Shown here in pieces: positions 20,460-45,222 of a DNA stretch of 64,000 bases. The DNA comes from Lachnospiraceae bacterium. GTDB lineage: Bacteria > Bacillota > Clostridia > Lachnospirales > Lachnospiraceae. The translations under genes were made by a program, and so were the position numbers. The DNA is taken from positions 62,001-126,000 of the forward strand of contig JAFSLV010000011.1 in NCBI GenBank assembly GCA_017448245.1. The letters are read 5' to 3'. The stretch's first letter is position 1. Each line of letters begins with the position of its first letter. The notes below the pieces were generated by a model. It was given only the letters and a program-made list of their open reading frames with translations. It did not search any database and had not been told where the DNA came from.

Positions 20460-20521
20460 CGAATGGCACGTGACCGGGACGGGCACCGTCACGGCGCATG
20501 AAACGGAGAAGAAGGAGTCAG

Positions 20522-22399: not shown

Positions 22400-22412
22400 A
22401 GGAGGATGCAGC

Positions 22413-26543: not shown

Positions 26544-26557
26544 GATGCACCTCCTCA

Positions 26558-27294: not shown

Positions 27295-27392
27295 AGACAT
27301 AAAAAAACAAAAACATATGTGGAATGTTTACAAAGATTGTTTTATAATTTTGAGTGAAAAAAACACTATTTTCAAAGGAGATTTCGTGCAAT

Positions 27393-28997
27393 ATGCCTAA
27401 CAGGTTGCAAAAATCGTTCTATCCGACCATCGAAGAACTGCTGACGCTGCCCGCGTTCCGGGACTGTACCGTGGTGGCGGGCAGCAAGGGACTCGGCCAC
27501 CGGGTATGCGGCGTAAACTTAAGCGATACACCGGATTATCACAAGTGGCTCACAAAGGACGAGATTATGGCCACCACCTGTTTTTCCATCCATAACGACA
27601 GTCAGGCCATAGAAAGCTTTGTTTCCAATGTATACAAACGCGGGCTTTCCGGCATCTTCATCAAGCCGAAACAGTATCTGGGAAGTATCCCCCGCGTGAT
27701 GAAAGAACAGGCCGATGCGTACGATCTTCCCCTCATCGAGCTGCCCGATACGGTCAGACTGTCGGGCATTGTGAAGGCGGTTTTTGACGAGATCACGAAA
27801 AGGGAAACCGATGTGCTCCGGCAAAGCCTCGCGGTCAACCGCACACTGATACGTACCATTCTGGACGGTGCCGACCTTGATGACATCGCGCGGATGATAT
27901 CCGAGCAGACCGGCGCGAGCGTCATGATTACGGATACGGTGAACGGCAGGAGGGCACTCTGTATCGCTAAATCCGATCAGGAGGTCTTCCGGGAAGCGGA
28001 CGAAGAAAAGACCGCGCAGATCATCACGGACAGTGCGGTCCCGTTCCCGCTGCAGGCGGAGGGCGCTTCCTTCGGACAGATATACTTTTACGGCGAGGCG
28101 TCCGCTTCGGATATGGATGAGACTCTCCTCACCCAGTTGCTGTCCGTTATCCCGCTCGAGATATCGGCAAGGCAGAGCAAGAACGAGGCGCGCCGCAGGG
28201 AGCTGTCGGCGTTCATCCGGCATCTGTTTTCGGATCCGATCACCGACATGGCCTGGGAGGAGAGCCGTGCCCTGGAATACGGGCTCAGACCGAAGGACGC
28301 CTATGTGGTGCTGCTGTTAAAGCTGGAAGAACTGCGTACGAACAACGGGAATTCCGGTCTCTTCCAGAGAGCGCTGTTTATCGGGGGGCTCAAAAACGTC
28401 TTTGCCCGCCGGGGCTACGAGCTGCAGGTGGTGGAGCGTACCGATCAAATCGTTTTTATTGCGGGGATCCGTCCCGAAAACGAACGGATGCAGGAGCTTG
28501 CCCTGGCAATCAAGCGCATGTTTGCGGACGCGATCAACCAGTATCACCTGCTGCGTCTGACAGGGGGGCTCAGCGCTTCCAACCGGGGGATCGCGGGGCT
28601 TGTCAACGGTATCCGTCAGGCGGAAGTCTGCATGAAGGTAACGGAGAGCCTGGGCATCCGGTATATATGCTTTGAGGATATGGGGATTCTCCGGATGGTC
28701 TACAGTGATAACCCGGAGTATGCGATATCGAGATTCCTGCACGAGGTATTGCGCGACCTGCTCGATGCCGGACAACCGCGAAATGTCGAGCTGATGACGA
28801 CTCTTGAAAGCTACTTAAGAAACGGCGGAAACGTGCGTCAGGTCTCGAAAGACCTGTACACACACTATAATACCGTTTCCTATCGCCTGAAAAAAATCGA
28901 AGAGATCACCGGCGCGGACCTGCGTGACCCCGATGACCGGTTTCTCCTTGACCTTGCGCTCAGGCTGATACGCATCACATCGGGGCAGATCATATAA
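27393..28997 (+). CDS. PucR-family transcriptional regulator
   Basis: A 534-residue regulator. The N-terminal PucR sensor domain spans roughly 10-135 (YPTIEELLTLPAFRDCTVVAG, LPLIELPDTVRLSGIVKAVFDEI). A GGDEF-like middle segment follows, and the C-terminal helix-turn-helix comes at about 470-530 (YLRNGGNVRQVSKDLYTHYN, TVSYRLKKIEEITG). PucR proteins control purine and related nitrogen-heterocycle catabolism, which fits the gene cluster from 29 to 42 kb. The ATG at 27393 follows AAAGGAG. An in-frame GTG at 27354 lies only five bases after the -10 and is unlikely. A terminator follows. Confidence 0.92.
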   Translation: MPNRLQKSFYPTIEELLTLPAFRDCTVVAGSKGLGHRVCGVNLSDTPDYHKWLTKDEIMATTCFSIHNDSQAIESFVSNVYKRGLSGIFIKPKQYLGSIPRVMKEQADAYDLPLIELPDTVRLSGIVKAVFDEITKRETDVLRQSLAVNRTLIRTILDGADLDDIARMISEQTGASVMITDTVNGRRALCIAKSDQEVFREADEEKTAQIITDSAVPFPLQAEGASFGQIYFYGEASASDMDETLLTQLLSVIPLEISARQSKNEARRRELSAFIRHLFSDPITDMAWEESRALEYGLRPKDAYVVLLLKLEELRTNNGNSGLFQRALFIGGLKNVFARRGYELQVVERTDQIVFIAGIRPENERMQELALAIKRMFADAINQYHLLRLTGGLSASNRGIAGLVNGIRQAEVCMKVTESLGIRYICFEDMGILRMVYSDNPEYAISRFLHEVLRDLLDAGQPRNVELMTTLESYLRNGGNVRQVSKDLYTHYNTVSYRLKKIEEITGADLRDPDDRFLLDLALRLIRITSGQII

Positions 28998-31434: not shown

Positions 31435-32286
31435 GTGATAGAAGCCGCCAGCGTGTGTGACAGATTATTAAGGGACGTCGGACAGGATACCTGCAGCCTG
31501 CAGGTACACTCCATGTTTGATACTGCCGTCAATTTTACGTCTGCCTTCGGCATTGTGACGGTGCTTTCTCCGGGCAGGAGCCTTCAGCCATACGCGATGG
31601 TACTGTGTCAGGATTTCGACTTTCATTTCTTTGAATACAGGGTTTCGGGCATTAACGACGCCGGTGTACATGCAAACGGCATACAGGTGATAGATTTTTC
31701 CTGCGCGAGCCGTCCCGATCTGAGTATCGAGGGGCGCAAGCTCCCCGCATACGATCCGGCAGAAGCCGCGCTGGGACATATTCGTTCATTTCTGAAGGGG
31801 CATTGTGAAGAGGGGCTTTCGAGGCTGGTATTTCACCGCCTTGACAATGCCGTAACCGGATTCCTCTATCCGCGGATTGAGGCTTTCCGGAAAGCGGCGG
31901 CCGGGAGCGATGACGAGGCATTCATCCGGGCGGCCTACGAGATTTCCGGCTGCGGTGAAGGACTGACCCCGTCCTCGGACGATTTTCTCAGCGGCTATTT
32001 GCTGTGCGCCGGCTTTATCCGGGGCAGGGAGGTCACGAAAGCGGCGGCCTATATGGCAGCCGAACGCACAAATGACATCAGCGCGGCCCTTCTGAAGCGC
32101 AGCGGTGAAGGCCTGTATTCCGAGGACATACTGGCATTGCTGACGGCACTGGGCAGTGCGGACAACGAAGAAGAGATCAACCGCGCGATTTCGCGCGTGG
32201 CTGAATTTGGCAGCAGTTCCGGCTGTGATTTTCTCACCGGATTGTATTTTGGCATCAAAGACTTACTCGTGCGGAAGGAGGAATGA
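31435..32286 (+). CDS. DUF2877 protein, oxamate carbamoyltransferase subunit AllH-like
   Basis: A 283-residue DUF2877 protein (E. coli YlbF/AllH type). The conserved block is GCGEGLTPSSDDFLSGYLLC, near residues 178-197. With FdrA and YlbE it forms the three-part oxamate carbamoyltransferase of allantoin fermentation, which phosphorolyses oxalurate to oxamate and carbamoyl phosphate. All three genes are adjacent here in one operon. The start is GTG after CGGAGGTG. Substrate identity in this organism is not fixed, because allantoinase and allantoate genes are absent from the window. Confidence 0.85.
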   Translation: MIEAASVCDRLLRDVGQDTCSLQVHSMFDTAVNFTSAFGIVTVLSPGRSLQPYAMVLCQDFDFHFFEYRVSGINDAGVHANGIQVIDFSCASRPDLSIEGRKLPAYDPAEAALGHIRSFLKGHCEEGLSRLVFHRLDNAVTGFLYPRIEAFRKAAAGSDDEAFIRAAYEISGCGEGLTPSSDDFLSGYLLCAGFIRGREVTKAAAYMAAERTNDISAALLKRSGEGLYSEDILALLTALGSADNEEEINRAISRVAEFGSSSGCDFLTGLYFGIKDLLVRKEE

Positions 32287-32290
32287 AGCA

Positions 32291-33847
32291 TTGAAGAAAC
32301 TTGAAGTCAGAAAGAACGCCTACTACGATTCCGTGACGCTCATGATCATCTCAAAGGAGGTCAAAAAGCTGGACGGTGTCCGCGAGGCGCTGGTCGGGAT
32401 GGGAACCGATCTGAACCGGGACCTTGTGGTCAGCACGGGACTGGAGGTGGAGGGATTTGACGCGGTGACGGCGAACGATTTCTTTATCGCCGCCGACTGC
32501 GATTCCGAAGACACCTTCCTGTCTGTCATACAGAAGGTGGACGAGCTGTTGTCCAAAAAGGCGGACAAGGCAAAGAGCGATTATTATCCGCCCACACTGG
32601 ACGGCGCACTGAAGATCGACGAGCATCTGAACATGGCAGTTATTTCGGTGCCCGGCAGATTTGCCGCAGGCGTCGCACAGGAGTGCTTAAACCATGATAT
32701 CAACGTGATGCTGTTCAGCGATAACGTAACGGTCGAAGAAGAGAAAGAACTGAAGGAATATGCCGTTTCAAAGGAGCTGCTGATGATGGGGCCCGACTGC
32801 GGAACGGCGGTGATCAACGGCGTGCCTCTCGCCTTTGCCAATGTGCTGCGCAGGGGTGATATCGGCATGGCCTGCGCGTCCGGAACAGGCGCGCAGGAGG
32901 TTTCCGTGCTGATCGACCAGCTGGGCGGCGGCGTTTCGCAGCTGCTGGGTACGGGAGGCCGTGACTTAAAAGCCGATATCGGCGGCATCATGATGAAACA
33001 GTGCCTGGACGCGCTGATCCATGATGACGCGACCAGGGTCATCACCCTGGTATCCAAGCCCCCGGCAGCGGAGGTCATGGACAAGATCTTACGGCAGGCA
33101 GCCGACGGCGGAAAGCCCACCGTCGTGTGCTTCATCGGCGGCGACCCCGCAGCGGTCGAAAAATACGGTCTGACGGCCGCCGTTTCCCTGGAGGACGCCG
33201 CACACAAGGCGGTCGCGCTCTCCAAAGGCGAGACGCCCGAAACCTTTGAATCGTTTTCGATGGGTCTGGAGGCCGCGGAAAAAATGGCAAAGGAAGAAGC
33301 GTCAAAGATGGCTTCCGGACAGAAATACGCGCGCGGTCTCTATACCGGCGGAACGGTCTGCGATGAGGCAATGAAGCTGATGATCGGGGAGTTAAAGCAC
33401 ATTTATTCCAACATACCGCTCAGTCCCGAAGACAAGCTGGAGGACGCAAGGAACGGGAAGTCGAAGGAGCATACCTTCCTCGATTTCGGCGACGATGAAT
33501 TTACGGTAGGACGTCCGCACCCGATGATCGACCCTTCCCTGCGTGCGGAGCGCGTGGTGCAGGAAGCCGAAGACAGGGAAGTGGCGGTCATCCAGGTAGA
33601 TTGCGTGATCGGCCTTGGCTCGCACGAAGACCCCGCGGAGGAGCTCTCGCAATCCATACGGAAAGCAAAGGAGATCGCCGCAAAGGACGGCAGGTATCTG
33701 TCGGTCGTCGCGGAAATCCTGGGAACGGATGCCGACCCGCAGGGGAAGGCCGCTTCCGGGAAGAAGCTTGAGGACGCGGGCGCGATCGTTCTTCCGTCGA
33801 ACGCGCAGGCGACGCGCTTTACGCAGCTGATCCTGAAAAACCTGTAA
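32291..33847 (+). CDS. fdrA: FdrA family protein, oxamate carbamoyltransferase subunit
   Basis: A 518-residue acyl-CoA-synthetase-like protein (FdrA/AllF). Segments GPDCGTAVINGVPLAFANVL, ACASGTGAQEVSVLIDQLGG and LLGTGGRDL resemble succinyl-CoA ligase alpha domains. The start is TTG at 32291, nine bases after AGGAGG, giving MKKLEVRKNAYYDSVTLM. A longer in-frame start lies inside the upstream gene and is rejected. It acts with the DUF2877 and DUF1116 proteins on either side. The expected reaction is phosphorolysis of a ureido acid to carbamoyl phosphate, later used by carbamate kinase. Confidence 0.9.
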   Translation: MKKLEVRKNAYYDSVTLMIISKEVKKLDGVREALVGMGTDLNRDLVVSTGLEVEGFDAVTANDFFIAADCDSEDTFLSVIQKVDELLSKKADKAKSDYYPPTLDGALKIDEHLNMAVISVPGRFAAGVAQECLNHDINVMLFSDNVTVEEEKELKEYAVSKELLMMGPDCGTAVINGVPLAFANVLRRGDIGMACASGTGAQEVSVLIDQLGGGVSQLLGTGGRDLKADIGGIMMKQCLDALIHDDATRVITLVSKPPAAEVMDKILRQAADGGKPTVVCFIGGDPAAVEKYGLTAAVSLEDAAHKAVALSKGETPETFESFSMGLEAAEKMAKEEASKMASGQKYARGLYTGGTVCDEAMKLMIGELKHIYSNIPLSPEDKLEDARNGKSKEHTFLDFGDDEFTVGRPHPMIDPSLRAERVVQEAEDREVAVIQVDCVIGLGSHEDPAEELSQSIRKAKEIAAKDGRYLSVVAEILGTDADPQGKAASGKKLEDAGAIVLPSNAQATRFTQLILKNL

Positions 33848-33861
33848 GGGAGGTGGGTGAT

Positions 33862-35292
33862 ATGAGCAAGGTAAACGAGCTTTTCAATAAAAAATTAGCG
33901 GTGGTCAATTTCGGCATAGAATCCTTTTATCATGACCAGGTACATCAGAACAACCCCGCGGTGCATGTGGACTGGAAGCCCGTTGCGGGCGGTGACAAAA
34001 AGGTCGCGGGCTGCCTGATGCAGCTGAAGAAACCGGAGCTTCTTGAAAAGATCGAAAAGGCCAATCAGGAAGCCTTACAGCGGATCCTTTCGGCGCAGCC
34101 CGTGCTCGCGGGCTTAAGCACCGCCGGTGAGTCCATTCCCGGCATGACAGAAACCACCATCCTTCACGCCGGGCCTCCCGTCACGTGGGAGCGCATGAGC
34201 GGGCCGCAGAAGGGGGCGGTCATGGGCGGCCTGATCTACGAAGGCCTCGCAAAGGATCTGAAAGAGGCGGAAGAACTGGCCGCAAGCGGAAAGATCACCT
34301 TTGACCCCTGTCACCACCACCATACGGTGGGGCCCATGGGCGGTATCGTCACGTACCATATGCCGGTATGGCGCATCGTAAACAAGGCGTTTGATTATGA
34401 AGCGTTCTGCACGCTGAATGAGGGCCTGGGCAAGGTGCTGCGCTTCGGCGCCTGCGATCAGGAGGTCATAGACAGACTGAACCGCATGCAGAACGAATTC
34501 TATCCGGTGTACAAGGAAGCGCTGGAACTGCACGGCGAGATCGACATGAAGGTACTGATCGCGCAGGCGCTGCAGATGGGGGATGAATGCCACAACCGCA
34601 ACAAAGCGGCCACCTCCCTTTTACTGCGCGAGATCGCAACGGATATCTACAACACGCACTTCCCTAAGGAACAGCAGGAAGCCGCGTTCCGGTTTTTAAA
34701 CGACAACGACCATACCTTCCTGAATCTGTCCATGCCGGTGTGCAAAGCCACCATGGATCCGATCTTTGACATCCCCTACTGCACGCTGGTTGCCACCATG
34801 TCCCGGAACGGCACGGACTTCGGCATACGCATCGCGGGTCTGGGACAGGACGAATGGTTCACCGCGCCTGCCGAAATGGTGAAGGGCCTGTATTTTCCGG
34901 GCTTTTCGGATGAGGACGCCAATCCCGATCTCGGTGACAGCTGCATCACGGAAACCACCGGCATCGGCGGCTTCTGTATGGCGGCATCTCCGGCGATCGT
35001 GCAGTTTGTGGGCGGCCAGGTGCAGGATGCGATCAATTATTCCACCCAGATGTATGAAATCACCGTTGGCGAGGGCAATGCCTACAAAATCCCGTCGCTC
35101 GATTTCCGGGGAAGCGCGACGGGCATCGATCTGATGAAGGTCATTGAAACGGGCATCCGCCCCATCATCAACACGGGTATCGCCCACAAAAATTACGGCG
35201 TGGGGCAGGTAGGCGCGGGGCTTGTGCATCCGCCGGAAGACTGCTTTAAGAAGGCGGTCACCGCGTGCGCCGAAAAATGGAGCAACGGATGA
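33862..35292 (+). CDS. DUF1116 (YlbE/AllG-like) protein
   Basis: A 476-residue DUF1116 protein (E. coli YlbE/AllG type), the third part of the oxamate carbamoyltransferase group. Conserved segments are NPAVHVDWKPVAGGD, FDPCHHHHTVGPMGGIVTYHMP, RNGTDFGIRIAGLG and KIPSLDFRGSATGID. The His-rich motif suggests metal or phosphate handling at an active site. The ATG at 33862 follows GGGAGGTGGGTG. Being in one operon with the other two parts and the later carbamate kinase supports carbamoyl transfer as the role. Confidence 0.9.
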   Translation: MSKVNELFNKKLAVVNFGIESFYHDQVHQNNPAVHVDWKPVAGGDKKVAGCLMQLKKPELLEKIEKANQEALQRILSAQPVLAGLSTAGESIPGMTETTILHAGPPVTWERMSGPQKGAVMGGLIYEGLAKDLKEAEELAASGKITFDPCHHHHTVGPMGGIVTYHMPVWRIVNKAFDYEAFCTLNEGLGKVLRFGACDQEVIDRLNRMQNEFYPVYKEALELHGEIDMKVLIAQALQMGDECHNRNKAATSLLLREIATDIYNTHFPKEQQEAAFRFLNDNDHTFLNLSMPVCKATMDPIFDIPYCTLVATMSRNGTDFGIRIAGLGQDEWFTAPAEMVKGLYFPGFSDEDANPDLGDSCITETTGIGGFCMAASPAIVQFVGGQVQDAINYSTQMYEITVGEGNAYKIPSLDFRGSATGIDLMKVIETGIRPIINTGIAHKNYGVGQVGAGLVHPPEDCFKKAVTACAEKWSNG

Positions 35293-35377
35293 AGGATAAG
35301 GGAACCGTGCGGCGACGCATTCCAAATAGCAACAGTACCATTTCAAACGGACACAAAAGAAAAGGAGGAAATCATCA

Positions 35378-36178
35378 ATGAGCAAGTGGTCAGACATCAA
35401 GATTTATGATCTTTCAATCCCGATCGGTGTCGGAACCCCCCCGTGGCCGACCTATGAGCCGCTTCAGATGAAGTATTTCAAGCGCCTGAGCTTTAACGGC
35501 GCAAACGGCCAGATACTCACGCATTCCAACCATGTCGGCACACATCTGGACGGACCGCTGCACTTTGATACGGCAGGCAGGGACATGGCTTCCCTGGAGC
35601 TCACTAAGCTCTGTGCGCCGGGCGTTGTCTGCGACCTGTCCGACCAGGCCGAGGACTGGGGTATCTACACGGGTGAGGATATTGAAAAACGCTGCGAGGT
35701 GAAGGAAGGCGATATCCTGATCATCAACACGGGCTACCACAAATACGGATGGGATATGCCCGAAGCCGACGAGAGGCGCTACATGCTGCGGCATCCCGGC
35801 CCGTCACTCGATTTCGTGAACTGGGTACGCGAAAAGAAGCTTCGCTGGCTCGGTGTCGACTGCGGCAGTGCCGACCATCCCATGAACACCAAGATCCGTG
35901 ACTGGGAGCCCCTCGAAGCGGAAAAATGTGACAAGGTGTTCCGTGAAAAATACGGCAAGGGGCTGAACGACATCTATCCGTGGCCCGATCACTATCAGGC
36001 AATGCATATCGAGCTCTTCTGCAAGCCGTATGAAGCGATTCACGCGGAATGCGTGGGTGGCGATATCGACCAGCTGTCCAACAAGCGTGTCGTCATCGGC
36101 TGCTTCCCCTGGAAGCTGGTGGACGGTGAGAGCTGCATCAGCCGCATTGTTGCCTTTGACGGATTCGAGGATGTATAA
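35378..36178 (+). CDS. Cyclase-family metal hydrolase
   Basis: A 266-residue member of the kynurenine formamidase/isatin hydrolase fold. It has the metal motif HVGTHLDGPLHF (HxGTHxDxPxH), and LGVDCGSADHPMN follows near residue 165. The family hydrolyses cyclic or formylated amides. Between carbamoyltransferase and molybdenum hydroxylase genes it is a good candidate for opening an oxidised ring to a ureido acid. That substrate is my inference. AAAGGAGGAAA precedes the ATG, and a strong hairpin follows the gene. Confidence 0.85.
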   Translation: MSKWSDIKIYDLSIPIGVGTPPWPTYEPLQMKYFKRLSFNGANGQILTHSNHVGTHLDGPLHFDTAGRDMASLELTKLCAPGVVCDLSDQAEDWGIYTGEDIEKRCEVKEGDILIINTGYHKYGWDMPEADERRYMLRHPGPSLDFVNWVREKKLRWLGVDCGSADHPMNTKIRDWEPLEAEKCDKVFREKYGKGLNDIYPWPDHYQAMHIELFCKPYEAIHAECVGGDIDQLSNKRVVIGCFPWKLVDGESCISRIVAFDGFEDV

Positions 36179-36191
36179 AATCCTCTTTTTA

Positions 36192-36221
36192 CGGCCCGCG
36201 CACGTATCTGTGCGCGGGCCG
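36192..36221 (+). other. Strong GC hairpin between cyclase and hydroxylase genes
   Basis: A perfect twelve-pair stem, CGGCCCGCGCAC with GTGCGCGGGCCG, and a six-base loop. No T-run follows on the plus strand, so it is not a standard terminator. It could stabilise or process the transcript, giving different levels of upstream and downstream genes. Confidence 0.6.
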
Positions 36222-36314
36222 CACAGGACGCGCTGATGAGCCGGAACCGTATCCGTTTCCCGGAAGCGGAGCAGCAACAAAAAAGACAGTATATCAGAGA
36301 AAGAGGTGAGCGCC

Positions 36315-37148
36315 GTGAAAGAGATCACATATATTGCACCGGAAAGCATTTCCGAAGCGCTTAAGCTCCTTACGAAACATAAGGGAAAGGCCGTTATCTT
36401 TAACGGCGGAACAGATGTGATGATCAGGCTGCGGGAAAATCTGATACAGCCCGATTACGTCATTGATATCAAACGGATTCCCGGATTAAAGGAAATCACG
36501 TTTAAAAAAGACGGTCTCCACGTCGGATGCTGTGCGACCATGAATGAGATTGCGGAGCATGCGGATGTGCGGAAATATTATCCGTATTACGCAAAAGCAT
36601 GCGCAAGCGTCGGCTCAAAGCAGGTGCGCAATCGTGCCACCTGTATCGGCAACATCGTCAACGCCTCTCCCCTTGCCGATTCCGCGACACCTCTTTATGC
36701 GATGGACGCCGTCCTTCTGATCGAAGGACCGGAGGGAAAACGCGAGGTGCCTGTCCGTGAATTCATTACCTTTGTGAGGAAGACCGTGCTTGCCGAAGAC
36801 GAAATCGTTCTCGGCGTTCGCGTGCCTTACATAAAAGGGGCAAAAGGCGTATACACCAAGAATTCGCGCCGCAAGGAGGTGGATCTTTCCAATGTCTGCG
36901 CGACTGTCGTGCGCACGGGGGACGAGTACCGGATCGCTTTTGGCTCGGTTGCCCCCACGCCGAAACGACTCGAAAAAACAGAGAAGCTCCTGAACGGCAA
37001 AAAAATAACGCCCGCATTGATCGAAAAAGCAAAGCAGACGGCCGTAACGGAGGTGGCGCCCATTGATGACGTACGGGCCTCAAAGGTCTATCGTCTGGAT
37101 ATCGTGCAGGCAATCGTCGAAAACTCACTGCTTGCGCTTGGTCGCTGA
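36315..37148 (+). CDS. Molybdenum hydroxylase FAD-binding subunit
   Basis: A 277-residue medium subunit of the xanthine dehydrogenase family. The FAD-binding segments FNGGTDVMIRLRENL and GSKQVRNRATCIGNIVNASP are clear, and the C-terminal CO-dehydrogenase flavoprotein domain includes TKNSRRKEVDLSNVCATV. It passes electrons from the iron-sulfur subunit to NAD or another acceptor. GTG at 36315, six bases after GAGGTG, is preferred over the GTG nine bases upstream. It forms an operon with the two following subunits. Confidence 0.92.
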   Translation: MKEITYIAPESISEALKLLTKHKGKAVIFNGGTDVMIRLRENLIQPDYVIDIKRIPGLKEITFKKDGLHVGCCATMNEIAEHADVRKYYPYYAKACASVGSKQVRNRATCIGNIVNASPLADSATPLYAMDAVLLIEGPEGKREVPVREFITFVRKTVLAEDEIVLGVRVPYIKGAKGVYTKNSRRKEVDLSNVCATVVRTGDEYRIAFGSVAPTPKRLEKTEKLLNGKKITPALIEKAKQTAVTEVAPIDDVRASKVYRLDIVQAIVENSLLALGR

Positions 37149-37160
37149 GGAGGTGGTCTT

Positions 37161-37673
37161 ATGCATACGATAGAGTTCAGTATCAACGGAGAAGCCTTAA
37201 CGCTGCTTGTCGAAGACAACCAGACAGCGCTGCGCGTCATCAGGGAGCAGGCGGGGTTCACGGGCACAAAGCCCGGATGTGAAGCCGGCGAGTGCGGTGC
37301 CTGCACCATACTGGTAAACGGAAAGCCCGTCAATGCATGTCTGATGCTTGCACCGGAGCTGGACGGAAAGGAAATCACAACGGTGGAAGGACTTGCGGAC
37401 GGGGAAAACCTGTCCGTGCTGCAGCAAAAATTCATCGATCACGCCGCGCTCCAGTGCGGCTACTGCACGCCGGGATTTCTGATGAGCGCGACGGCCCTGC
37501 TCAATGAGAACCCGCATCCGACCAGACAGGAAATCGTGGAGGCGATCAGCGGGAATCTGTGCCGCTGTACCGGATACAAGCGCATCATCGAGGCCATCGA
37601 GGATGCCGCAAACAGCGGGACCAAAAAGATCCCCGCAAAGAAAACAAAAGCGAAGGGAGGTGCGCGCAAATGA
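37161..37673 (+). CDS. Molybdenum hydroxylase [2Fe-2S] subunit
   Basis: A 170-residue small subunit with two [2Fe-2S] centres. The plant-ferredoxin-type cluster uses the cysteines of PGCEAGECGACTILVNG, and the second uses CGYCTPGF and GNLCRCTGYKRI. It transfers electrons from the Mo centre to the FAD subunit. The C-terminal 20 residues are Lys-rich and not part of the core fold. GGAGGTGGTC precedes the ATG. The stop overlaps the next start as ATGA. Confidence 0.95.
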   Translation: MHTIEFSINGEALTLLVEDNQTALRVIREQAGFTGTKPGCEAGECGACTILVNGKPVNACLMLAPELDGKEITTVEGLADGENLSVLQQKFIDHAALQCGYCTPGFLMSATALLNENPHPTRQEIVEAISGNLCRCTGYKRIIEAIEDAANSGTKKIPAKKTKAKGGARK

Positions 37674-40039
37674 CACAGGACGGAAAGTACACCGAAATAG
37701 GCAATTCCCTTCCGCGCGTTGACGGAAAGGCAAAGGTCACCGGTGCGGCAAAATACGCGGGAGATTATTACTTTCCCCGCGAGCTGTGGGCACAGGTGGT
37801 GCGCAGCCCCTACCCGCACGCAAAAATCAAAAAGATAGACACGTCGGCGGCCGAAAAGCTCAAGGGCGTCAGGAACGTGATCACGGGAGATTATTACAAA
37901 AAACGCGGCGGGTTGTATCTTGCCGATAAAAACTTCCTTGCGTACCAGACGGTGAAATACAGGGGCGAAGCGGTGGTTGCCGTATGCGCCGAAACAAGGG
38001 AGATCGCCGAGGAGGCATGCCGCCTTGTAAAGATCGATTACGAAGAGCTGCCGGCGGTGTTCAGCCCGATGGAAGCCATGAAGAAGGGCGCGCCCCTGAT
38101 CCATCCGGATCTGCATACATACCGCGTAGCCCCCATCTTTCATCCCGTGCCGCATACGAACATCTCGCACCATCATGTGCTGCGCAAGGGCGATGTAAAG
38201 AAGGGCTTCAGGGAAAGCTATCGGATATTCGAGCACAGCTATCACATCCCGCATGTCCAGCATGTGCCCATCGAGACCCATGTAACGACCGCACTGTACG
38301 ATACGGCCGGTTCGCTGACCGTGTGGTCGTGTTGCCAGTCACCCTACGCCGTGCGCGCGGCGCTGGCGGATTCCTTTGACATACCGCTGAACAAGCTCCG
38401 CGTCATATCCGAGTTTGTGGGCGCGGGGTTCGGCTCCAAGGCGGGAACCACCATCGAGGGTATCGTGATACCGCTCGCGCAGCTGAATCCCGGCAGGCAC
38501 ATCCGTCTGGACTACAGCCGTGAGGACGAATTTGAAAATGCCTATGTGCGCCAGGGGATGTACGCCAGGATCAAAACAGGCGTGGACAAAAAGGGAAAGA
38601 TCCTTGCGGTGGAAAATGAATTTCTCTGGGACGGCGGCGCCTACACGGAATACGGCGTAAATATCGTCAAGGCGGCAGGCTTTGCGGGCGCGGGTCCCTA
38701 CAATATCGACAACATAGCGACCGACAGCTACTGCCTGTACACGAATCACCCGGTGGGCGGTCCGTACAGGGGATTCGGCATGTGCGAGATCCATTTCGCG
38801 ATCGAACAGAACATCGACATGATCGCAAAGGAAATGGGCATTTCTCCTGTCGAGATGCGCAAAATCAACGGCCTGCGTCCGGGAGACACCACCAATACGG
38901 GCGAAGTGATGAAGGTATCGGGATACCAGGACTGCCTGGATACGGTCATCAAAGCGCTCGATTACAACAGGAAGAGCGCACAGCCGAAGGATAAGCATAA
39001 GATCCGGGCAAAGGGGATTGCGGCGGGCTGGAAATCTCCTTCCCAGCCGACGGATGCCGCAAGCGCGGCAATCATACGCATGAATGAGGACGGTACCTTT
39101 TATCTGCAGACGAGCGCGGAAGAGATCGGCCAGGGTTCGAATACCGTACTGACACAGATCGCAGCCGAGGTATTAAACGTGAACCCCGACCGCATCACGC
39201 TCACCAGCGGTGATACCACGGCCAATCCTTACGAGTGGCAGACGGTTGCTTCCCGCACGACGTACTGCGCGGGCAACGCCGTAAAGCTTGCCGCGGAAGA
39301 CTTAAAGGAGCATGTGCTGGATCTTGCCCAGATCAAGCTCGGCTGCGCAAAGAGAGACATCCATCTCGAGAGAGATGATGATCATCATATGACCTGGGTT
39401 GTTGCCACCAATCATCCCGAAAACCGCGTGCCCATCAGCACCTTCGCACTGGGGCTTACGTTACCCGACGGATCGGGTATCGGGGGACCCGCGATCGGTA
39501 CGGGACGGTTCGTGCTTCCCAACAACTTTGCGTACAACATGGAAGACTCCCAGTCTCCGAAGCCGGTTGCGTTCTGGACCATTGGCGTTACGGGGGCGGA
39601 AGTCGAGGTGGATACGCAGACGGGTCACATAAAGGTACTGCAGATGATATCCTGTTTTGATCCCGGAAAGACCGTCAACCGCGCGCTCTATGACGCACAG
39701 GTGGAGGGCGGCATGATCCAGGCGATGGGAACCGCCATTTTCGAGGAACTGATGCTGAAGGACGGCAGGGTTCTGAATAAGAACTTTGTCGATTACAAGA
39801 TCCCTACGGCGGATGATATCCCGGAAAGGCTGGAATCCCTCATCGTGGAATATCCGGAAGAGACAGGGCCCTTTGGTGCGAGGGGTATAGGCGAACCTGT
39901 CATGGTCCCCGGGGCTCCGGCGATCGCAAATGCCGTGGCAAACGCTCTGGGCCATCACTTCGACCATATGCCCATCACACCCGACGATGTACTGGAAGTT
40001 GTAAGAGGCAAAAAGTCAAAGTCCAAAGCAAAGCGGTAA
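37670..40039 (+). CDS. Molybdenum hydroxylase large subunit (xanthine dehydrogenase family)
   Basis: A 789-residue Mo-binding subunit, normal for a three-subunit enzyme. It begins SLPRVDGKAKVTGAAKYAGD. Cofactor segments are FVGAGFGSKAG, GGPYRGFG and EEIGQGSNTV, and the catalytic glutamate is E742 in GARGIGEP. It hydroxylates a nitrogen heterocycle or similar substrate; purine, pyrimidine or nicotinate cannot be separated by eye. The window also encodes a selenium-dependent hydroxylase maturation set, so a labile selenium ligand is likely by association. The ATG at 37670 follows AAGGGAGGTG. The C-terminus is a short basic tail (KKSKSKAKR). Confidence 0.93.
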   Translation: MTQDGKYTEIGNSLPRVDGKAKVTGAAKYAGDYYFPRELWAQVVRSPYPHAKIKKIDTSAAEKLKGVRNVITGDYYKKRGGLYLADKNFLAYQTVKYRGEAVVAVCAETREIAEEACRLVKIDYEELPAVFSPMEAMKKGAPLIHPDLHTYRVAPIFHPVPHTNISHHHVLRKGDVKKGFRESYRIFEHSYHIPHVQHVPIETHVTTALYDTAGSLTVWSCCQSPYAVRAALADSFDIPLNKLRVISEFVGAGFGSKAGTTIEGIVIPLAQLNPGRHIRLDYSREDEFENAYVRQGMYARIKTGVDKKGKILAVENEFLWDGGAYTEYGVNIVKAAGFAGAGPYNIDNIATDSYCLYTNHPVGGPYRGFGMCEIHFAIEQNIDMIAKEMGISPVEMRKINGLRPGDTTNTGEVMKVSGYQDCLDTVIKALDYNRKSAQPKDKHKIRAKGIAAGWKSPSQPTDAASAAIIRMNEDGTFYLQTSAEEIGQGSNTVLTQIAAEVLNVNPDRITLTSGDTTANPYEWQTVASRTTYCAGNAVKLAAEDLKEHVLDLAQIKLGCAKRDIHLERDDDHHMTWVVATNHPENRVPISTFALGLTLPDGSGIGGPAIGTGRFVLPNNFAYNMEDSQSPKPVAFWTIGVTGAEVEVDTQTGHIKVLQMISCFDPGKTVNRALYDAQVEGGMIQAMGTAIFEELMLKDGRVLNKNFVDYKIPTADDIPERLESLIVEYPEETGPFGARGIGEPVMVPGAPAIANAVANALGHHFDHMPITPDDVLEVVRGKKSKSKAKR

Positions 40040-40079
40040 AAGAATCTGCAATTCAAAGACTAACAAGGAGGAAAGCATT

Positions 40080-41429
40080 ATGAAACTGGTTTATGACGTC
40101 GAATCAAAACCTTCCATGGGTGCAAATCTGGTTCTTGCATTCCAGCAGCTGATGGCAATCACCGCTGCAACGATCCTGGTTCCCGCCATTGTGAACGGCG
40201 CATCGGAAACACCGCTCCTGAACCAGGGTTCGGCGCTGATGGGCGCGGGATTCGGTACACTTGTCTACCTGTTCTTTACGCAGAGAAAAAGTCCCGTGTT
40301 TCTCGGCTCGTCATTTGCTTTTATCTCACCCCTGATCGGTGCGGCATCCTTTGGGTCGCTGGGCATCATTCTGGGCGCCGTGTTCGCGGGCGGTGTGTAT
40401 GTGGTGATCGCGCTCATCATCAAGATGGTAGGCACCGACTGGGTGAACAAACTGATGCCGCCCGTTATCATCGGCCCGACGGTCGCGCTGATCGGTCTGT
40501 CCCTCTGCGGAACGGCCATCAATGACGTGAACGGCGGATCGAGCGGAGGCTATAACCTGGTGAAGATCCTCGTCGGCATCATCACCTTCTTCATCATCGT
40601 GTACTGCTCGGCAAAGGGCAACCAGACGATGCAGCTGTATCCCTTTATCTTTGGTATGCTGGGCGGCTATATCATCGCGAGCATCTTTACCGCGATCGGC
40701 AACGCGACAGGCAATGACTATCTGAAGATCGTTGATTACAGTGCGCTTGTAAATAATTTCTCGCCGTTTTCCTTCTCGAGCATCATTGCGGTTCCGCCGA
40801 TCGTTGCGCTGAATGCGGCGTCCGAGGGGGCGGCGATTGACGGGACGGCAATCGCGTCCCTCTTTGTACTGTTCGCGCCGGTGGCCTTTGTTGTGTTCGC
40901 GGAGCATATCGCCGACCACAAAAACTTAAGCTCGGTCATCGGACGTGATCTGATCAAGGAACCCGGTCTCACACGCACACTCCTGGGAGACGGCGTGGGT
41001 TCCATCGTGGGCTCGCTCTTCGGCGGATGCCCGAACACGACCTACGGCGAATCCGTCGGCTGTGTCGCCATCACGGGCTGTGCTTCGACCCATACCATAA
41101 CGACCGCGGGCATCATGGCCATTGTCCTGTCCCTGTGCGCGCCGTTCGTGGCGTTCATCAACACGCTGCCCGGCTGCGTCATGGGCGGCGCCTGTGTGGC
41201 CCTGTACGGCTTTATAGCGGTTTCCGGTCTCAAGATGCTGGCAAAGGTGGACCTCGGACAGAATGAAAATCTGTACGTGGTTTCGGCAATCCTGGTCACC
41301 GGCGTGGGCGGCCTTGTGCTTACCTTTGGCGCGGTGGAACTGTCCGCCATCGCAACGGCCCTGATCGTTGGCATCATCACAAGGGCAATCGTAGGAAACG
41401 CGAAAGACGCGCCGGGCGGGGATGGTTGA
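40080..41429 (+). CDS. NCS2 nucleobase permease, UraA-like
   Basis: A 449-residue permease with about fourteen transmembrane segments. Family motifs are FQQLMAITAATILVPAIV at the N-terminus and GGCPNTTYGESVG in the substrate region. The TTYGE form is typical of the uracil (UraA) branch; purine permeases differ there. It imports a nucleobase with a cation. Its place between the molybdenum hydroxylase and carbamate kinase genes makes it the probable importer for this pathway and hints at a pyrimidine-like substrate. AAGGAGGAAAG precedes the ATG. Confidence 0.9.
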   Translation: MKLVYDVESKPSMGANLVLAFQQLMAITAATILVPAIVNGASETPLLNQGSALMGAGFGTLVYLFFTQRKSPVFLGSSFAFISPLIGAASFGSLGIILGAVFAGGVYVVIALIIKMVGTDWVNKLMPPVIIGPTVALIGLSLCGTAINDVNGGSSGGYNLVKILVGIITFFIIVYCSAKGNQTMQLYPFIFGMLGGYIIASIFTAIGNATGNDYLKIVDYSALVNNFSPFSFSSIIAVPPIVALNAASEGAAIDGTAIASLFVLFAPVAFVVFAEHIADHKNLSSVIGRDLIKEPGLTRTLLGDGVGSIVGSLFGGCPNTTYGESVGCVAITGCASTHTITTAGIMAIVLSLCAPFVAFINTLPGCVMGGACVALYGFIAVSGLKMLAKVDLGQNENLYVVSAILVTGVGGLVLTFGAVELSAIATALIVGIITRAIVGNAKDAPGGDG

Positions 41430-41473
41430 TCATGGCCGCGTGATTCTGCGCAATACTGCCTGATACTGCATCA

Positions 41474-41514
41474 TGCTTCCATAAGCGGAATGAATCATTT
41501 CGCTTATGGAAGCA
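41474..41514 (+). other. Long near-perfect hairpin before carbamate kinase
   Basis: The fourteen-base arms TGCTTCCATAAGCG and CGCTTATGGAAGCA match perfectly. The inner stretch AATGA-A-TCATT, flanked by a G-T pair, extends the palindrome almost to the centre. No long T-run follows. It may be a transcript-stability or partial termination element, or a protein-binding palindrome. Confidence 0.65.
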
Positions 41515-41574
41515 CTTTCGTCATGCATCTGTCATGCCTGATCGTATCAAGCGAATGATAAGGAGGAAAGAAAC

Positions 41575-42516
41575 ATGTCAAAGAAAATCGTTATCGCGCT
41601 CGGCGGGAACGCGCTTGGTAACGGACTTGCGGAACAGAAAATAGCGGTGGTCGAAACGGCAAAGGCCATCGCCGATCTGATCGAGGAAGGGCACAATGTG
41701 GTGATCGCCCACGGCAACGGTCCGCAGGTGGGCATGATCCAGAACGCGATGACCGCGCTTGAACGGAGCGAACCGGAAAAGTATTCGCATGTACCGCTGT
41801 CGGTCTGCGTGGCCATGAGCCAGGGGTATATAGGTTATGACCTGCAGTGTTTTTTACGCGAGGAGCTGCTCAACCGCGGCATAAAAAAAAGCATATCGAC
41901 CATCCTCACGCAGGTGCAGGTCGATCCGGAAGATCCCGCATTTAAAAATCCCACGAAACCGATCGGTGCCTTTATGACCAGGGAAGAAGCCGATGCACTC
42001 GCAAAGGATCCGCGCATCACGATCATCGAGGATTCCGGCAGGGGGTACCGCCGCGTTGTGGCTTCGCCCAAGCCCGTCGCGATTGTGGAGATTGAAGCCA
42101 TCCGCGAGCTGGTCGACCACGGTCACGTGGTGGTTGCCTGCGGCGGGGGAGGAATTCCCGTTACCAGCGACGGGGGTAACGGCCTGCGCGGTGCAGGCGC
42201 CGTGATCGACAAAGACTTTGCGGCCTGTACCCTCGCAAAGCAGCTGGATGCCGATACGCTCATCATACTCACGGCCGTTGAGAAGGTGGCAATCCGCTTT
42301 GGCAAGCCTGATCAGAAGGATCTTGACGAACTGACCCCTCAGGAAGCAAGACGCTACATTGCCGACGGTGAATTCGCGCCGGGATCGATGTTGCCCAAGG
42401 TGGAAGCGGCGCTCGACTTTGCGGAATCGAAGGAGGGACGCGCGTCACTGATCACTCTTTTGGAAAAAGCAAAGGACGGAATATCGGGAAAAACCGGAAC
42501 GCACATACACGCGTGA
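41575..42516 (+). CDS. arcC: Carbamate kinase
   Basis: A 313-residue amino-acid-kinase-fold enzyme that makes ATP from carbamoyl phosphate and ADP. Motifs are IALGGNALGNGL at the start, IAHGNGPQVGMIQNAM, VVACGGGGIPV, and GSMLPKVEAALDF at the end. It closes the catabolic series and would harvest the carbamoyl phosphate formed by the AllH-FdrA-YlbE group, as YbcF/AllK does in allantoin fermentation. No arginine deiminase genes accompany it. AAGGAGGAAAG precedes the ATG. Confidence 0.95.
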   Translation: MSKKIVIALGGNALGNGLAEQKIAVVETAKAIADLIEEGHNVVIAHGNGPQVGMIQNAMTALERSEPEKYSHVPLSVCVAMSQGYIGYDLQCFLREELLNRGIKKSISTILTQVQVDPEDPAFKNPTKPIGAFMTREEADALAKDPRITIIEDSGRGYRRVVASPKPVAIVEIEAIRELVDHGHVVVACGGGGIPVTSDGGNGLRGAGAVIDKDFAACTLAKQLDADTLIILTAVEKVAIRFGKPDQKDLDELTPQEARRYIADGEFAPGSMLPKVEAALDFAESKEGRASLITLLEKAKDGISGKTGTHIHA

Positions 42517-42565: not shown

Positions 42566-42766
42566 TCAGGATAAAACCACGGTATAGGTGCCCGCGTCTT
42601 CCGTGACAGTGGGAGTGAGACGCTCCTTCGAGGCGAGTCTCGAGATATTCTCGACGGAGACGCGGTTGTCGACCATGATTTCATAGCGCTCCGACGGATG
42701 CTCTTTCATCTCCTTACGTAACAGAATCACGGGTTCCGGACAGGACAATCCTCTGGCATCGATCAT
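42566..42766 (-). CDS. TusA/SirA-like sulfur or selenium carrier
   Basis: A 66-residue protein with the family motif ARGLSCPEPVILLRKEM, whose CPxP cysteine carries persulfide or selenium. Its start overlaps the yedE-like stop by four bases. The pairing of a SirA-like protein with a YedE transporter, cysteine desulfurase and SelD is a known selenium-trafficking arrangement. The ATG at 42766 is chosen because conservation begins there; a longer frame lies inside the upstream gene. Confidence 0.9.
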   Translation of the reverse strand: MIDARGLSCPEPVILLRKEMKEHPSERYEIMVDNRVSVENISRLASKERLTPTVTEDAGTYTVVLS

Positions 42767-43839
42767 GACCGGGTGCCTCCTTTCCGAAAAGTATTGAGTG
42801 CGGCGATGACGCATATGACACAGATGCCGATGAGGACGGCGGCCTTTCCGTTACCGGTGGGGCCTGCCGCCGAAGAGGCGAGGCCAAAGTTGTGGCAGAA
42901 CGCGGCACCTGTCAGGAGCCCCAGATACGTCACGGCGGAATCCGTATTACCTTCGCCCGCAAGCACCATCTGTCTCAGGGGGCAACCGCCGAGCAGCACG
43001 CAGCCGAATCCCGCAAGCAGCATTCCGAGGAAATTCCACAGGCCGTCCGTATGCGCGACCGCCTGCTCCGCAAAACCGGGATGAAAACGTCCGGTGATGA
43101 GATTGCCGATGAGCGCCGCCGCAAAGATCCCCGCAAAGCCGATCATGAGCTTAGGTTCTTTAAAGAGAATCAGATCGCGGAATGCGCCGACCATGCACAT
43201 CCTTGTAAACTGTGCGAGCGCACCGACAAGGAGCCCTGCGCCGAGAGAAAGCAAAACGGGCGCATGCTTTCCGCCGGGACCGGCATCGGCCGCACTGAAA
43301 AAGATAAAGGCGGGCGCGGCGATCAAGAGGATCAGCAGCACAACCTGTGACGCGGGGAAAAGAACTCCTTCCGCAGCGGGCTGTGCGTAGTTGCGCCCGA
43401 GCGAAAATCCCTTTTGCAGGAAGAAGACACCGCATCCGATTCCTGCCGCAAAGCCGGCAAGGCCGAAGAGCGCGTTCAGATCACCGCCCGCAAGACGCAG
43501 CACCATGCGGAAGGGGCAGCCAAGAAACATCAGGCATCCGATCATGACAAAGAAGCCCAGGATAAAACGTGTAAACGGTGCGGAGCCGCCCTTGACACGA
43601 AATTCCTTCCGTGCAAAAGAGAGCAAAAACGCGCCGAGCACAAGCCCCGCCACCTCCGGACGGATGTACTGCACGGGCTCCGCGCGATGCAGTCCCAGTC
43701 CTCCCGCCGTGTCGCGGATAAAGCAGGCCAGGCAAAAACCCATGTTGGCCGGATTGCCGCTCATGACGAGGACGACGGCGACGCAGCCGGTGAGAATGCC
43801 GGCCAGTGCGATCGTGAGTCTTTCTTTTTTGAAATCCAT
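42763..43839 (-). CDS. yedE: YedE-family putative selenium transporter
   Basis: A 358-residue protein with about ten membrane segments and duplicated sulfur-transport (YeeE/YedE) units. Each unit bears a conserved cysteine motif, LGCPFRMVLRL and LGGCPLRQMVLAGEGN, that could pass thio- or selenium compounds. The family member next to SelD and a SirA-like gene is assigned to selenium uptake by association. AAAGGAGG precedes the ATG, and an extended -10 (TGGTATACT) lies upstream on the minus strand. It is divergent from the cysteine desulfurase-like gene. Confidence 0.9.
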   Translation of the reverse strand: MDFKKERLTIALAGILTGCVAVVLVMSGNPANMGFCLACFIRDTAGGLGLHRAEPVQYIRPEVAGLVLGAFLLSFARKEFRVKGGSAPFTRFILGFFVMIGCLMFLGCPFRMVLRLAGGDLNALFGLAGFAAGIGCGVFFLQKGFSLGRNYAQPAAEGVLFPASQVVLLILLIAAPAFIFFSAADAGPGGKHAPVLLSLGAGLLVGALAQFTRMCMVGAFRDLILFKEPKLMIGFAGIFAAALIGNLITGRFHPGFAEQAVAHTDGLWNFLGMLLAGFGCVLLGGCPLRQMVLAGEGNTDSAVTYLGLLTGAAFCHNFGLASSAAGPTGNGKAAVLIGICVICVIAALNTFRKGGTRS

Positions 43840-43995
43840 TGTGAATCCCTCCTTTGTCTAACAGTATACCATTGTTTTTTTGTTTTGTCTCGTTTATGAT
43901 GATATAGGTGTCAAAAGTCATGAAGACGATCTTGCTTGCAGGAATCGTCGAATGACGGCAGGATCGCGGGAGTTTCTTTAGAAACGGGGGACGGT

Positions 43996-45222
43996 ATGAA
44001 ACGCATCCATCTGGATCAGGCAGCGAGCTCTTTTCCGAAGGCGCCGGGCGTTTCGGATGCAATGAAGCGCTTCCTGGACGAGTCCGGCGCAAACATCGCA
44101 AGAGGCTCTTATAAGGCGGCGATCGAAGCGGAGGAGCGGGTCTTTGAGACGAGGTCGCTTCTGGCGCGCCTCTTTCACGCACCCGACGCAAAAAATGTCA
44201 TCTTTACGGGCGGCGCCACCACCGCGCTCAACATGATTCTCAGGGGATTTCTGCATCCCGGGGATCATGTGCTTGTCAGTGCCTTTGAACATAATGCCGT
44301 TATGCGGCCGCTGACCCTGATGCAAAAAGACGGCGTGATTTTTGACGTGATCCCCGCATCCGCGGACGGCGGCATGCATCTGGCGGATGCGGACGCGTTT
44401 GTCACGACGCAGACCAAGGCGATCATCATGACGCATGCATCGAATGTCACGGGCGCGGTGATGCCGGTCAGGGAGGCGGGACTGTTTAGCAAAGAGTACG
44501 GCCTGAAACTTATCGTCGATACCGCACAGACCGCGGGCATCCTGCCCGTCGACATGGAGGCCTTCGGGATCGACGCGCTCGCTTTTTCCGGTCACAAGGG
44601 ACTGCTCGGTCCGCAGGGGGTCGGCGGCATGGTCGTAACGGACGAGATGGCGTCCATGATGACGCCGCTCATCGCGGGCGGCACCGGATCTTTTTCCCAT
44701 CTGTATGAGATGCCGGATGTTTTGCCCGACCGGTTTGAGGCGGGCACCCTGAATCTCCCGGGGATCTGCGGGCTCGAAGCGGCGCTTTTATTTTTGCGGG
44801 AAGTACATCCGGAGGTCTTTGCCGGGGCACAGGAGGACGCGTCGCTACAGGCAGAGGGGATCTATGCCCGGGAGACGGAGCTGTACGCAAGGCTCCTTTC
44901 CGGAATCGATGCGATCAATGAAGAGGCGGGGAAAGAATGCATCCGCGTCATTCGTCCGCAGTGCGCCTGCGTTCCGCTGCTGTCGATCGCGTTTAAGGAT
45001 CACGACCAGGGGGAGGTCGCACGCCAACTCGAGGAAAAATACGGCATCCTCACGCGTGTGGGGTTACATTGCGCACCCGCCGCGCATCATGCGTCCGGGA
45101 CCTTTCCCGACGGAACGATCCGTTTTTCCTTTGGCGCGTTTCATACGGAAGAGGATGCGGATTCCGCTGTCCTTGCTTTGCACGAAATGGTGATTGACCG
45201 ATGGAAACTCAGGCAAGACTGA
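43996..45222 (+). CDS. Cysteine desulfurase-like aminotransferase class V
   Basis: A 408-residue PLP enzyme. The cofactor lysine lies in [17 protein letters not shown], and the substrate cysteine region is [21 protein letters not shown]-terminal [20 protein letters not shown] is typical of the family often found with SelD. It likely releases selenium from selenocysteine or sulfur from cysteine for delivery to SelD and the Mo cofactor. The ATG at 43996 is preferred because homology starts there. Its 3' end overlaps selD by 22 bases, implying coupling. Confidence 0.9.

Follow-up and report, generated by a model that had tools for sequence, protein, structure and literature searches.

We asked which compound is broken down by a cluster of nine genes found in a 64,000-nucleotide stretch of DNA of a Lachnospiraceae bacterium (assembly GCA_017448245.1, contig JAFSLV010000011.1, positions 62,001 to 126,000; hereafter the window, whose own numbering is used throughout). 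The cluster associates the three subunit families of the AllFGH transcarbamylase with a cyclase-family hydrolase, a molybdenum (Mo) hydroxylase, a nucleobase permease, and a carbamate kinase. In Escherichia coli, AllFGH is reported to convert oxalurate into oxamate and carbamoyl phosphate (PMC11326118). None of the nine genes of the cluster belongs to the allantoin pathway. We predict that they encode an anaerobic, energy-conserving, oxidative pathway for pyrimidines, a reading that we hold to be fairly probable and in which every substrate is inferred from gene content and conservation.

Content of the cluster and proposed pathway

The nine genes are all on the forward strand and span positions 31435-42516, with intergenic gaps of -4 to 145 bases, in the order allH, allF (fdrA), allG (ylbE), PF04199 cyclase, xdhB, xdhC, xdhA, NCS2 permease, and carbamate kinase. 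A preliminary description of the locus had outlined this co-directional series, and Pfam and NCBIfam profile matches confirm the same nine genes over the same span. The three transcarbamylase subunits are encoded together, separated by 4 and 5 bases: AllH (31435..32286; PF11392, 87 bits) and AllG (33853..35292; PF06545, 306 bits) are above the Pfam cut-offs, and AllF (32291..33847, start assumed) has 471 bits with PRK06091 for a cut-off of 433. They are followed by the cyclase-family metal hydrolase (35378..36178; PF04199, 117 bits, above the Pfam cut-off), the proposed opener of the barbiturate ring. The Mo hydroxylase has an XdhB-like flavin adenine dinucleotide subunit (36306..37148), an XdhC-like 2Fe-2S subunit (37161..37673), and an XdhA-like catalytic subunit (37670..40039; PF02738/PF20256/PF01315), the proposed uracil dehydrogenase, all with profile matches below every NCBIfam cut-off. 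The permease is of the NCS2 (UraA) type (40080..41429; PF00860, 231 bits) and stays under the substrate-specific cut-offs (TIGR00801, 267 vs. 292 bits; uracil permease model, 266 vs. 477). The last gene encodes a carbamate kinase (arcC, 41575..42516; TIGR00746, 372 bits for a cut-off of 358). Base composition does not point to recent import, the guanine-cytosine content being 0.563 in the cluster and 0.559 in the window. The statement that allantoinase is missing is true in the strict sense, since the best allantoinase match of the genome has 273.5 bits for a cut-off of 358. This match is a gene of the window beyond those then described (49665-51065, reverse strand), which encodes a dihydropyrimidinase/D-hydantoinase.

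In the proposed pathway, the NCS2 permease would import the base: uracil, possibly thymine, or cytosine that is subsequently deaminated. The Mo hydroxylase would then introduce an oxygen at C6, giving barbiturate. The cyclase-family hydrolase would open barbiturate to ureidomalonate (3-oxo-3-ureidopropanoate), which AllFGH would phosphorolyse to malonamate and carbamoyl phosphate, as with oxalurate and oxamate in E. coli, and the carbamate kinase would make adenosine triphosphate (ATP) from carbamoyl phosphate. Ureidomalonate bears the N-carbamoyl amide group of oxalurate on malonate. In relatives of the cluster, an amidase would then produce malonate, MdcA or a family III coenzyme A (CoA)-transferase would produce malonyl-CoA, and a biotin-dependent decarboxylase would produce acetyl-CoA. 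In the lineage of the window, a module of a thiolase-like, a Zn-ribbon, and an orphan protein (module C) would stand in the place of these three-carbon (C3) steps. A series of steps from ureidomalonate to acetyl-CoA, by way of malonamate with carbamoyl phosphate, malonate, and malonyl-CoA, would call for just such neighbors: AllFGH, a carbamate kinase, an amidase, a malonate CoA-transferase, and a biotin decarboxylase. The scheme of the preliminary description, from import through hydroxylation, ring opening, and phosphorolysis to ATP, is the one that gene content and conservation favor most, its substrates and activities being predictions. That description had the core cluster right and did not cover the adjacent selenium genes, the hydantoinase, module C, or how the pathway continues at its C3 end.

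Conservation of the AllG-cyclase core

Using the cyclase as a query on 84,980 species genomes, we obtained 251 relatives and retained the 80 best loci (65-89% identity). Their records are titled Clostridia (Flavonifractor, Anaerotruncus, Anaerocolumna, Alkaliphilus, Maledivibacter, Lutispora, and others), Coriobacteriales, Anaerolineaceae and other Chloroflexi, and a Thermotogales bin, mostly anaerobic groups. Cultured strains with the cluster include Anaerocolumna aminovalerica DSM 1283, Maledivibacter halophilus, and Alkaliphilus peptidifermentans. The co-occurrence of the cyclase with fdrA and ylbE, which the preliminary description had left to a genome search, is frequent: of these 80 loci, 76 have AllG, 68 AllF, 46 XdhA, and 45 NCS2, many of the contigs being short.

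We also took a sample based on AllG, which avoids a choice on the cyclase. AllG matched in 60 of 398 genomes of the phylum, one of them the window's own, and 65 regions were taken from the other 59; together with two regions of a sample of relatives (L176, L182) and the window itself (L184), which are outside the 65, this makes 68 regions in all. Cyclase matches below 35% identity were counted as absent (L171, 26%), and region L127, whose contig stops next to AllG, was placed among the cyclase-negative ones. The identity thresholds for neighboring genes (28-55%) were set after the matches were seen, and amidase matches at 31-32% (L134, L137, L139) are not counted. The cyclase is present in 33 of the 65 regions (31 genomes). 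AllG and the cyclase occur together in 109 of 145 loci; in 106 of these they share a strand, and in 91 they are separated by fewer than 400 bases, which argues that the arrangement is not due to chance. A Mo hydroxylase accompanies 26/33 cyclase-positive and 5/32 cyclase-negative regions, and best matches to AllB, AllC, AllD, or AllE of E. coli are found in 0/33 and 5/32.

We built a quick tree (LG+G4) of the 74 AllG sequences that passed a length filter; its cyclase-centered sequences come from 25 loci chosen by hand, part of which the filter removed. On this tree, the presence of the cyclase needs 7 changes, as against 21.6 when the labels are shuffled. The window's AllG belongs to a group made up of cyclase loci only, and the AllG of E. 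coli is found elsewhere, paired with L148 in a join marked as one between two long branches. A profile search detected AllH in 92 of 131 cyclase loci, many of the remaining ones being short pieces. Within the genus of the window the cluster is sporadic, as none of 60 genomes, some of them 60-90% complete, has an AllG match.

C3 genes beside the core in other genomes

The genes next to the core in other genomes point to malonate. Four loci, titled uncultured Clostridia (L047) or Lachnospiraceae (L055, L063, L069), have a single co-directional run composed of MdcA, an mmdA-like carboxyltransferase, OadG-like and biotin-carrier proteins (small proteins named by reading of their sequences), OadB, a PF01425 amidase, AllF, AllG, the cyclase, XdhB, XdhC, XdhA, and NCS2. 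A fifth locus, L048 (Lachnospiraceae), has the same run from OadB on, its DNA starting after the first genes. The XdhA of these five loci is 72-73% identical to that of the window. In L063, MdcA has 804 bits with TIGR01110 for an equivalog cut-off of 789, and the mmdA-like carboxyltransferase has 886 bits, under the cut-off of 999 of the methylmalonyl-CoA decarboxylase model. Many other loci of Clostridia, Tissierellia, and Chloroflexi have a family III CoA-transferase instead, accompanied in some cases by an amidase or C-N hydrolase.

Across the 114 cyclase-positive loci (80 cyclase-centered, 33 from the AllG survey, and the window), MdcA is found in 10 and the CoA-transferase in 44, never both, which makes 54 loci with either. 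An amidase or C-N hydrolase occurs in 45 of these loci, parts of a biotin decarboxylase in 17, the thiolase of module C in 21, and none of the C3 types in 24. Cytosine-deaminase relatives, present in 14 of the 114 loci, fit a pyrimidine substrate. In the AllG survey, an amidase or C-N hydrolase is found in 16/33 cyclase-positive and 0/32 cyclase-negative regions, MdcA, CoA-transferase, or biotin decarboxylase in 12/33 and 2/32, and module C in 7/33 and 1/32. Altogether, 25/33 cyclase-positive regions have a C3 gene of one of these kinds, compared with 3/32 cyclase-negative ones, one of the three exceptions being L127, which is cut by the contig end. The loci are related by descent, and the Fisher p-values given in this work overstate the evidence and are only indicative.

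Two further regions (L173, L174) have AllG and AllF with a carbamate kinase and a 44% identical mmdA-like gene, and no match to the cyclase or Mo hydroxylase. Their substrate may be different again.

Sequence features of the cyclase and the Mo hydroxylase

The best solved relatives of the cyclase are kynurenine formamidases, with weaker matches to isatin hydrolases. The metal-site motif of the PF04199 superfamily, HxGTHxDGxxH, is invariant in 29 of 29 cyclase sequences; at this position, the kynurenine formamidases read HTGTHIDAPFH (4co9) and HTGAHCDAPLH (4cog). No protein of the cluster matched the AtzD/barbiturase family in profile scans, which covered the cluster. For the catalytic subunit of the Mo hydroxylase, we aligned 61 XdhA sequences and named positions after the bovine numbering. 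The Glu at the position of the catalytic base (Glu1261) is kept in 60 sequences, with one gap, and the Arg at position 880 in 57. The position of Phe914 varies, and that of Glu802 holds Ala in 55 of the 61 relatives and Gln in E. coli XdhA and XdhD. These differences in the pocket suggest, without naming it, a substrate different from that of the two E. coli enzymes.

Weighing of alternative substrates

The branch from uracil to barbiturate and ureidomalonate, which the preliminary description had proposed for the case of a uracil-like base, is favored by the malonate genes, the amidases, and the cytosine-deaminase relatives beside the core, and by the reductive-urate-like genes elsewhere in the genome (see below), uracil being the predicted substrate. 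Several observations weigh against it. The dihydropyrimidinase near the cluster could open the ring instead. The two groups of AllG regions are not clearly separated by the carbamate kinase (20/33 cyclase-positive vs. 12/32 cyclase-negative, p = 0.08), 8 of the 33 cyclase-positive regions have no C3 gene, and the relatives of 8-oxoguanine or guanine deaminase found in 6 of the 114 loci fit a pyrimidine less clearly. Among solved structures, the amidase is closest to peptide amidases, and malonamidase E2 ranks far below them, so the amidase alone does not name the substrate. AllH was not found by profile search in the fetched DNA of the five loci with the malonate-type run, and all three AllFGH subunits are needed in E. 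coli. The window's own genome gave no match to MdcA in a search that had no positive control, nor a PF01425 amidase in a search where 12 of 14 controls were recovered, and it has a single C-N hydrolase, within a 734-amino-acid open frame. Finally, the CoA-transferase is about 42% identical to the oxalate CoA-transferase YfdE of E. coli, and the loci that carry it could, taken alone, fit oxamate and oxalate.

This last similarity is part of the case for an oxalurate route, in which the Mo hydroxylase and the cyclase would convert hydantoin to parabanate and then oxalurate, AllFGH would release oxamate and carbamoyl phosphate, an amidase would give oxalate, and the CoA-transferase oxalyl-CoA. 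Such a route would use AllFGH on the substrate on which it is proven (PMC11326118) and could draw on the hydantoinase located 7 kb from the cluster. However, MdcA and the mmdA-like decarboxylase fit malonate and not oxalate, the permease is of the uracil/xanthine type, and the sole match to the oxalyl-CoA decarboxylase Oxc in the 80 cyclase loci, the 68 AllG regions, and two regions of the window's genome is at 26% identity (L135). We regard this route as quite unlikely. A purine route is more unlikely still in our view. It supposes that the Mo hydroxylase acts on a purine, that the cyclase, in the manner of a xanthinase, cleaves xanthine in its pyrimidine ring, and that AllFGH phosphorolyses 4-ureido-5-imidazolecarboxylate, which leaves the malonate genes beside the core without a role. 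None of eight urate or purine proteins of E. coli is the best match in the 114 cyclase loci, a result in which proteins of the same families from the window or the loci may have taken matches, and which concerns these eight proteins, xanthinase genes being outside the search. The resemblance of the Mo hydroxylase subunits to xanthine dehydrogenases would suit a purine, as would the PucR regulator near the cluster and the six loci with guanine or 8-oxoguanine deaminase relatives, whereas the Ala at the Glu802 position sets most XdhA relatives apart from E. coli XdhA and XdhD. In addition, the genome has XdhD-, YgfK-, and SsnA-like genes on contig C31 (28, 42-44, and 31% identical to those of E. 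coli) and YgeW-, YgeY-, and YgeX-like genes on contig C44 (68, 59, and 50%). In our reading, most of the reductive uric acid pathway has its relatives among these genes, and the cluster therefore does not have to be the one that handles urate.

The same chemistry might also serve a related base only, be it thymine or 5-methylcytosine, which would lead to methylmalonate, or barbiturate-like ureides from the diet or from plants, with uracil not the main substrate. The permease, which is under every substrate-specific cut-off, and the resemblance of the decarboxylase to the methylmalonyl-CoA decarboxylase model are compatible with this idea, whereas MdcA is a malonate enzyme by its model. We find it unlikely that uracil is set aside in this way, and the gene data do not separate uracil from thymine.

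Module C and the C3 end in the window's genome

Returning to the predicted uracil route, the lack of matches to MdcA and to a PF01425 amidase and the presence of one C-N hydrolase in the window's genome mean that malonamate would there either be processed by module C or go no further, as with oxamate in E. coli, and be excreted. The three genes of the module are on the reverse strand upstream of the cluster. They encode a small zf-ChsH2/DUF35-like Zn-ribbon protein (24959..25312, start assumed, an open frame), a thiolase-like protein without the nucleophilic Cys (25347..26558; PF22691/PF00108), and an orphan protein conserved alongside the thiolase (26558..27238) that has no Pfam family at E<=10. 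The trio adjoins the same core in other genomes. The Zn-ribbon protein is found in 15 of the 80 cyclase loci, and its relative in L056 just passes the cut-off of PF12172 (23.5 vs. 23.2 bits). When aligned to 7yvy and 6esq, the thiolase of the window reads IENGPASG where 7yvy reads IEAACASG, and NGPASG is invariant in 11 of 11 module C thiolases, with Pro at the position of the nucleophilic Cys. KS-Q domains of polyketide synthases are decarboxylating, and we liken the cysteine-less thiolase to such cysteine-less decarboxylating KS domains. As for the orphan family, 1 of 12 members touches Acetyltransf_1 in Pfam scans (E = 0.13), no credible relative turned up when PDB sequences were searched with a profile, and the label GNAT-like, which comes from a motif resemblance, is weak.

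The thiolase never occurs with the C3 modules of the other genomes: MdcA or the CoA-transferase is found in 0/21 thiolase loci and 54/93 others (Fisher p = 2e-7), and an amidase or C-N hydrolase in 0/21 and 45/93 (p = 8e-6). Module C thus looks like a replacement of the C3 end in the window's lineage. Two loci (L149, L150) have a 40-41% identical relative of the orphan protein with a biotin decarboxylase and no thiolase. One could imagine that, within a widespread AllFGH barbiturate route, the orphan family replaces the amidase and the CoA-transferase and the thiolase/Zn-ribbon pair replaces the biotin decarboxylase in a KS-Q-like manner, leading from malonamate to acetyl-CoA, but we consider this division of labor doubtful. 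Three CoA-transferases on contig C37 were considered as candidates of the window's genome and rejected, as they lie among acyl-CoA dehydrogenase-like and MmgE-like genes (read from their translations) and the pathway enzyme has its top match on that contig at 29% identity. The mmdA-like matches on the same contig have 360 and 119 bits for a cut-off of 999.

Relation to known systems

The closest known systems are the AllFGH operon of E. coli and the barbiturase-type oxidative pyrimidine route, which would be joined here. As in E. coli, where AllFGH and AllK serve the allantoin route (PMC11326118), the three subunit families and a carbamate kinase are in one gene series, and phosphorolysis of an N-carbamoyl amide is expected. 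In contrast, the place of allB, allC, allD, and allE is taken in the window by genes for a cyclase and a Mo hydroxylase. In some bacteria, barbiturase and ureidomalonase are described as converting barbiturate to ureidomalonate and then to malonate and urea (PMC3758960, citing Soong et al.), so that uracil, barbiturate, ureidomalonate, and malonate are intermediates shared with our proposal. The differences are that the ring opener here is of PF04199 and not of the AtzD/barbiturase family, and that ureidomalonate would be split by phosphate with a gain of ATP, whereas it is hydrolyzed to urea in the route as given in that source. Our records are also mostly of the presumed anaerobic groups listed above.

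The reductive uric acid pathway (XdhD, YgfK, SsnA, HyuA, YgeW, YgeY, YgeX; PMC12507026) likewise has a Mo hydroxylase, a carbamoyl-transfer step, and a carbamate kinase in anaerobes. However, its transcarbamylase and ring-opening families are others, and its relatives in the genome of the window are on other contigs. Anaerobic malonate decarboxylation, with MdcA, a biotin carrier, and a membrane decarboxylase, resembles the C3 end of L047, L055, L063, and L069, where MdcA, the mmdA-like carboxyltransferase, and OadB adjoin the core; it differs from the window's genome, where the thiolase-like module takes that place. An anaerobic barbiturate or ureidomalonate route, or a link between AllFGH and the cyclase, was not found in the titles and abstract starts of open-licence PubMed Central (PMC) articles, a search without bioRxiv and most subscription papers and not a proof of absence.

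To our knowledge, anaerobic pyrimidine breakdown has been described mainly as a reductive route. If our proposal is correct, an oxidative, phosphorolytic route would be common in gut and sediment bacteria, and nucleic-acid bases would be an added source of ATP, ammonia, and acetate. AllFGH would gain a second natural substrate, a subfamily of PF04199 a function, and one selenium-type Mo hydroxylase a suggested substrate. Annotations of allantoin or oxalurate degraders based on AllFGH would often be wrong, considering that half of the sampled AllG regions (33/65) have the cyclase. Module C would offer a compact search space for new malonyl or malonamate chemistry.

Selenium traits and flanking genes

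The Mo hydroxylase of the cluster is probably selenium-dependent, judging from the genes around it. An XdhC-YqeB fusion (20498-22399) and YqeC (22332-23129), both on the forward strand, are above the cut-offs of the NCBIfam set TIGR03309/TIGR03172 for the maturation of selenium-dependent Mo hydroxylases, and NCBIfam names yqeB and yqeC as selenium cofactor genes. Downstream of the carbamate kinase, a block (42566..46349) encodes a YedF-like protein (52 bits with the YedF model, under the cut-off of 110), YedE, an EF2568-type cysteine desulfurase, and SelD, with TIGR04112, TIGR01977, and TIGR00476 above cut-off. The window thus contains SelD, YqeB, YqeC, and YedE together with the Mo hydroxylase. 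No selA match came out of a profile search of its genome (4 of 14 controls recovered, one of them above its cut-off), the tRNA selenouridine gene selU being outside the search. This combination fits a selenium-dependent Mo hydroxylase. Selenium has been proposed to perhaps support Mo use in some organisms (PMC2432076). The XdhA of the cluster has 353 bits with the Se_dep_XDH model, under its cut-off of 830. The genome holds two Mo hydroxylases, that of the cluster and one on contig C31, and with selU outside the search, selenium may serve another purpose.

Outward from allH, the upstream side has an SSS-family symporter (reverse strand), a nitroreductase-like gene (reverse), a PucR-type regulator (27354..28997, forward; PF07905, PF13556), and the three genes of module C. 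The sodium symporter (29665-31197), divergent from allH and with no match that reaches an NCBIfam cut-off, might provide an additional way of uptake. On the other side, a 691-amino-acid frame without Pfam match separates the selenium block from the dihydropyrimidinase gene. The product of the latter has 543 bits with the D-hydantoinase model for a cut-off of 393 and is 37% identical to HyuA of E. coli; the gene is about 7 kb from the cluster and adjoins one encoding a MobA/MocA-like nucleotidyltransferase (51062..51892, reverse strand; PF12804). This hydantoinase may belong to the urate set of the genome, and the carbamate kinase could serve both the set and the cluster. At the start of the window, three long frames on the forward strand (50-1297, 1294-3177, and 4282-6180) appear by eye to be HD-domain paralogues.

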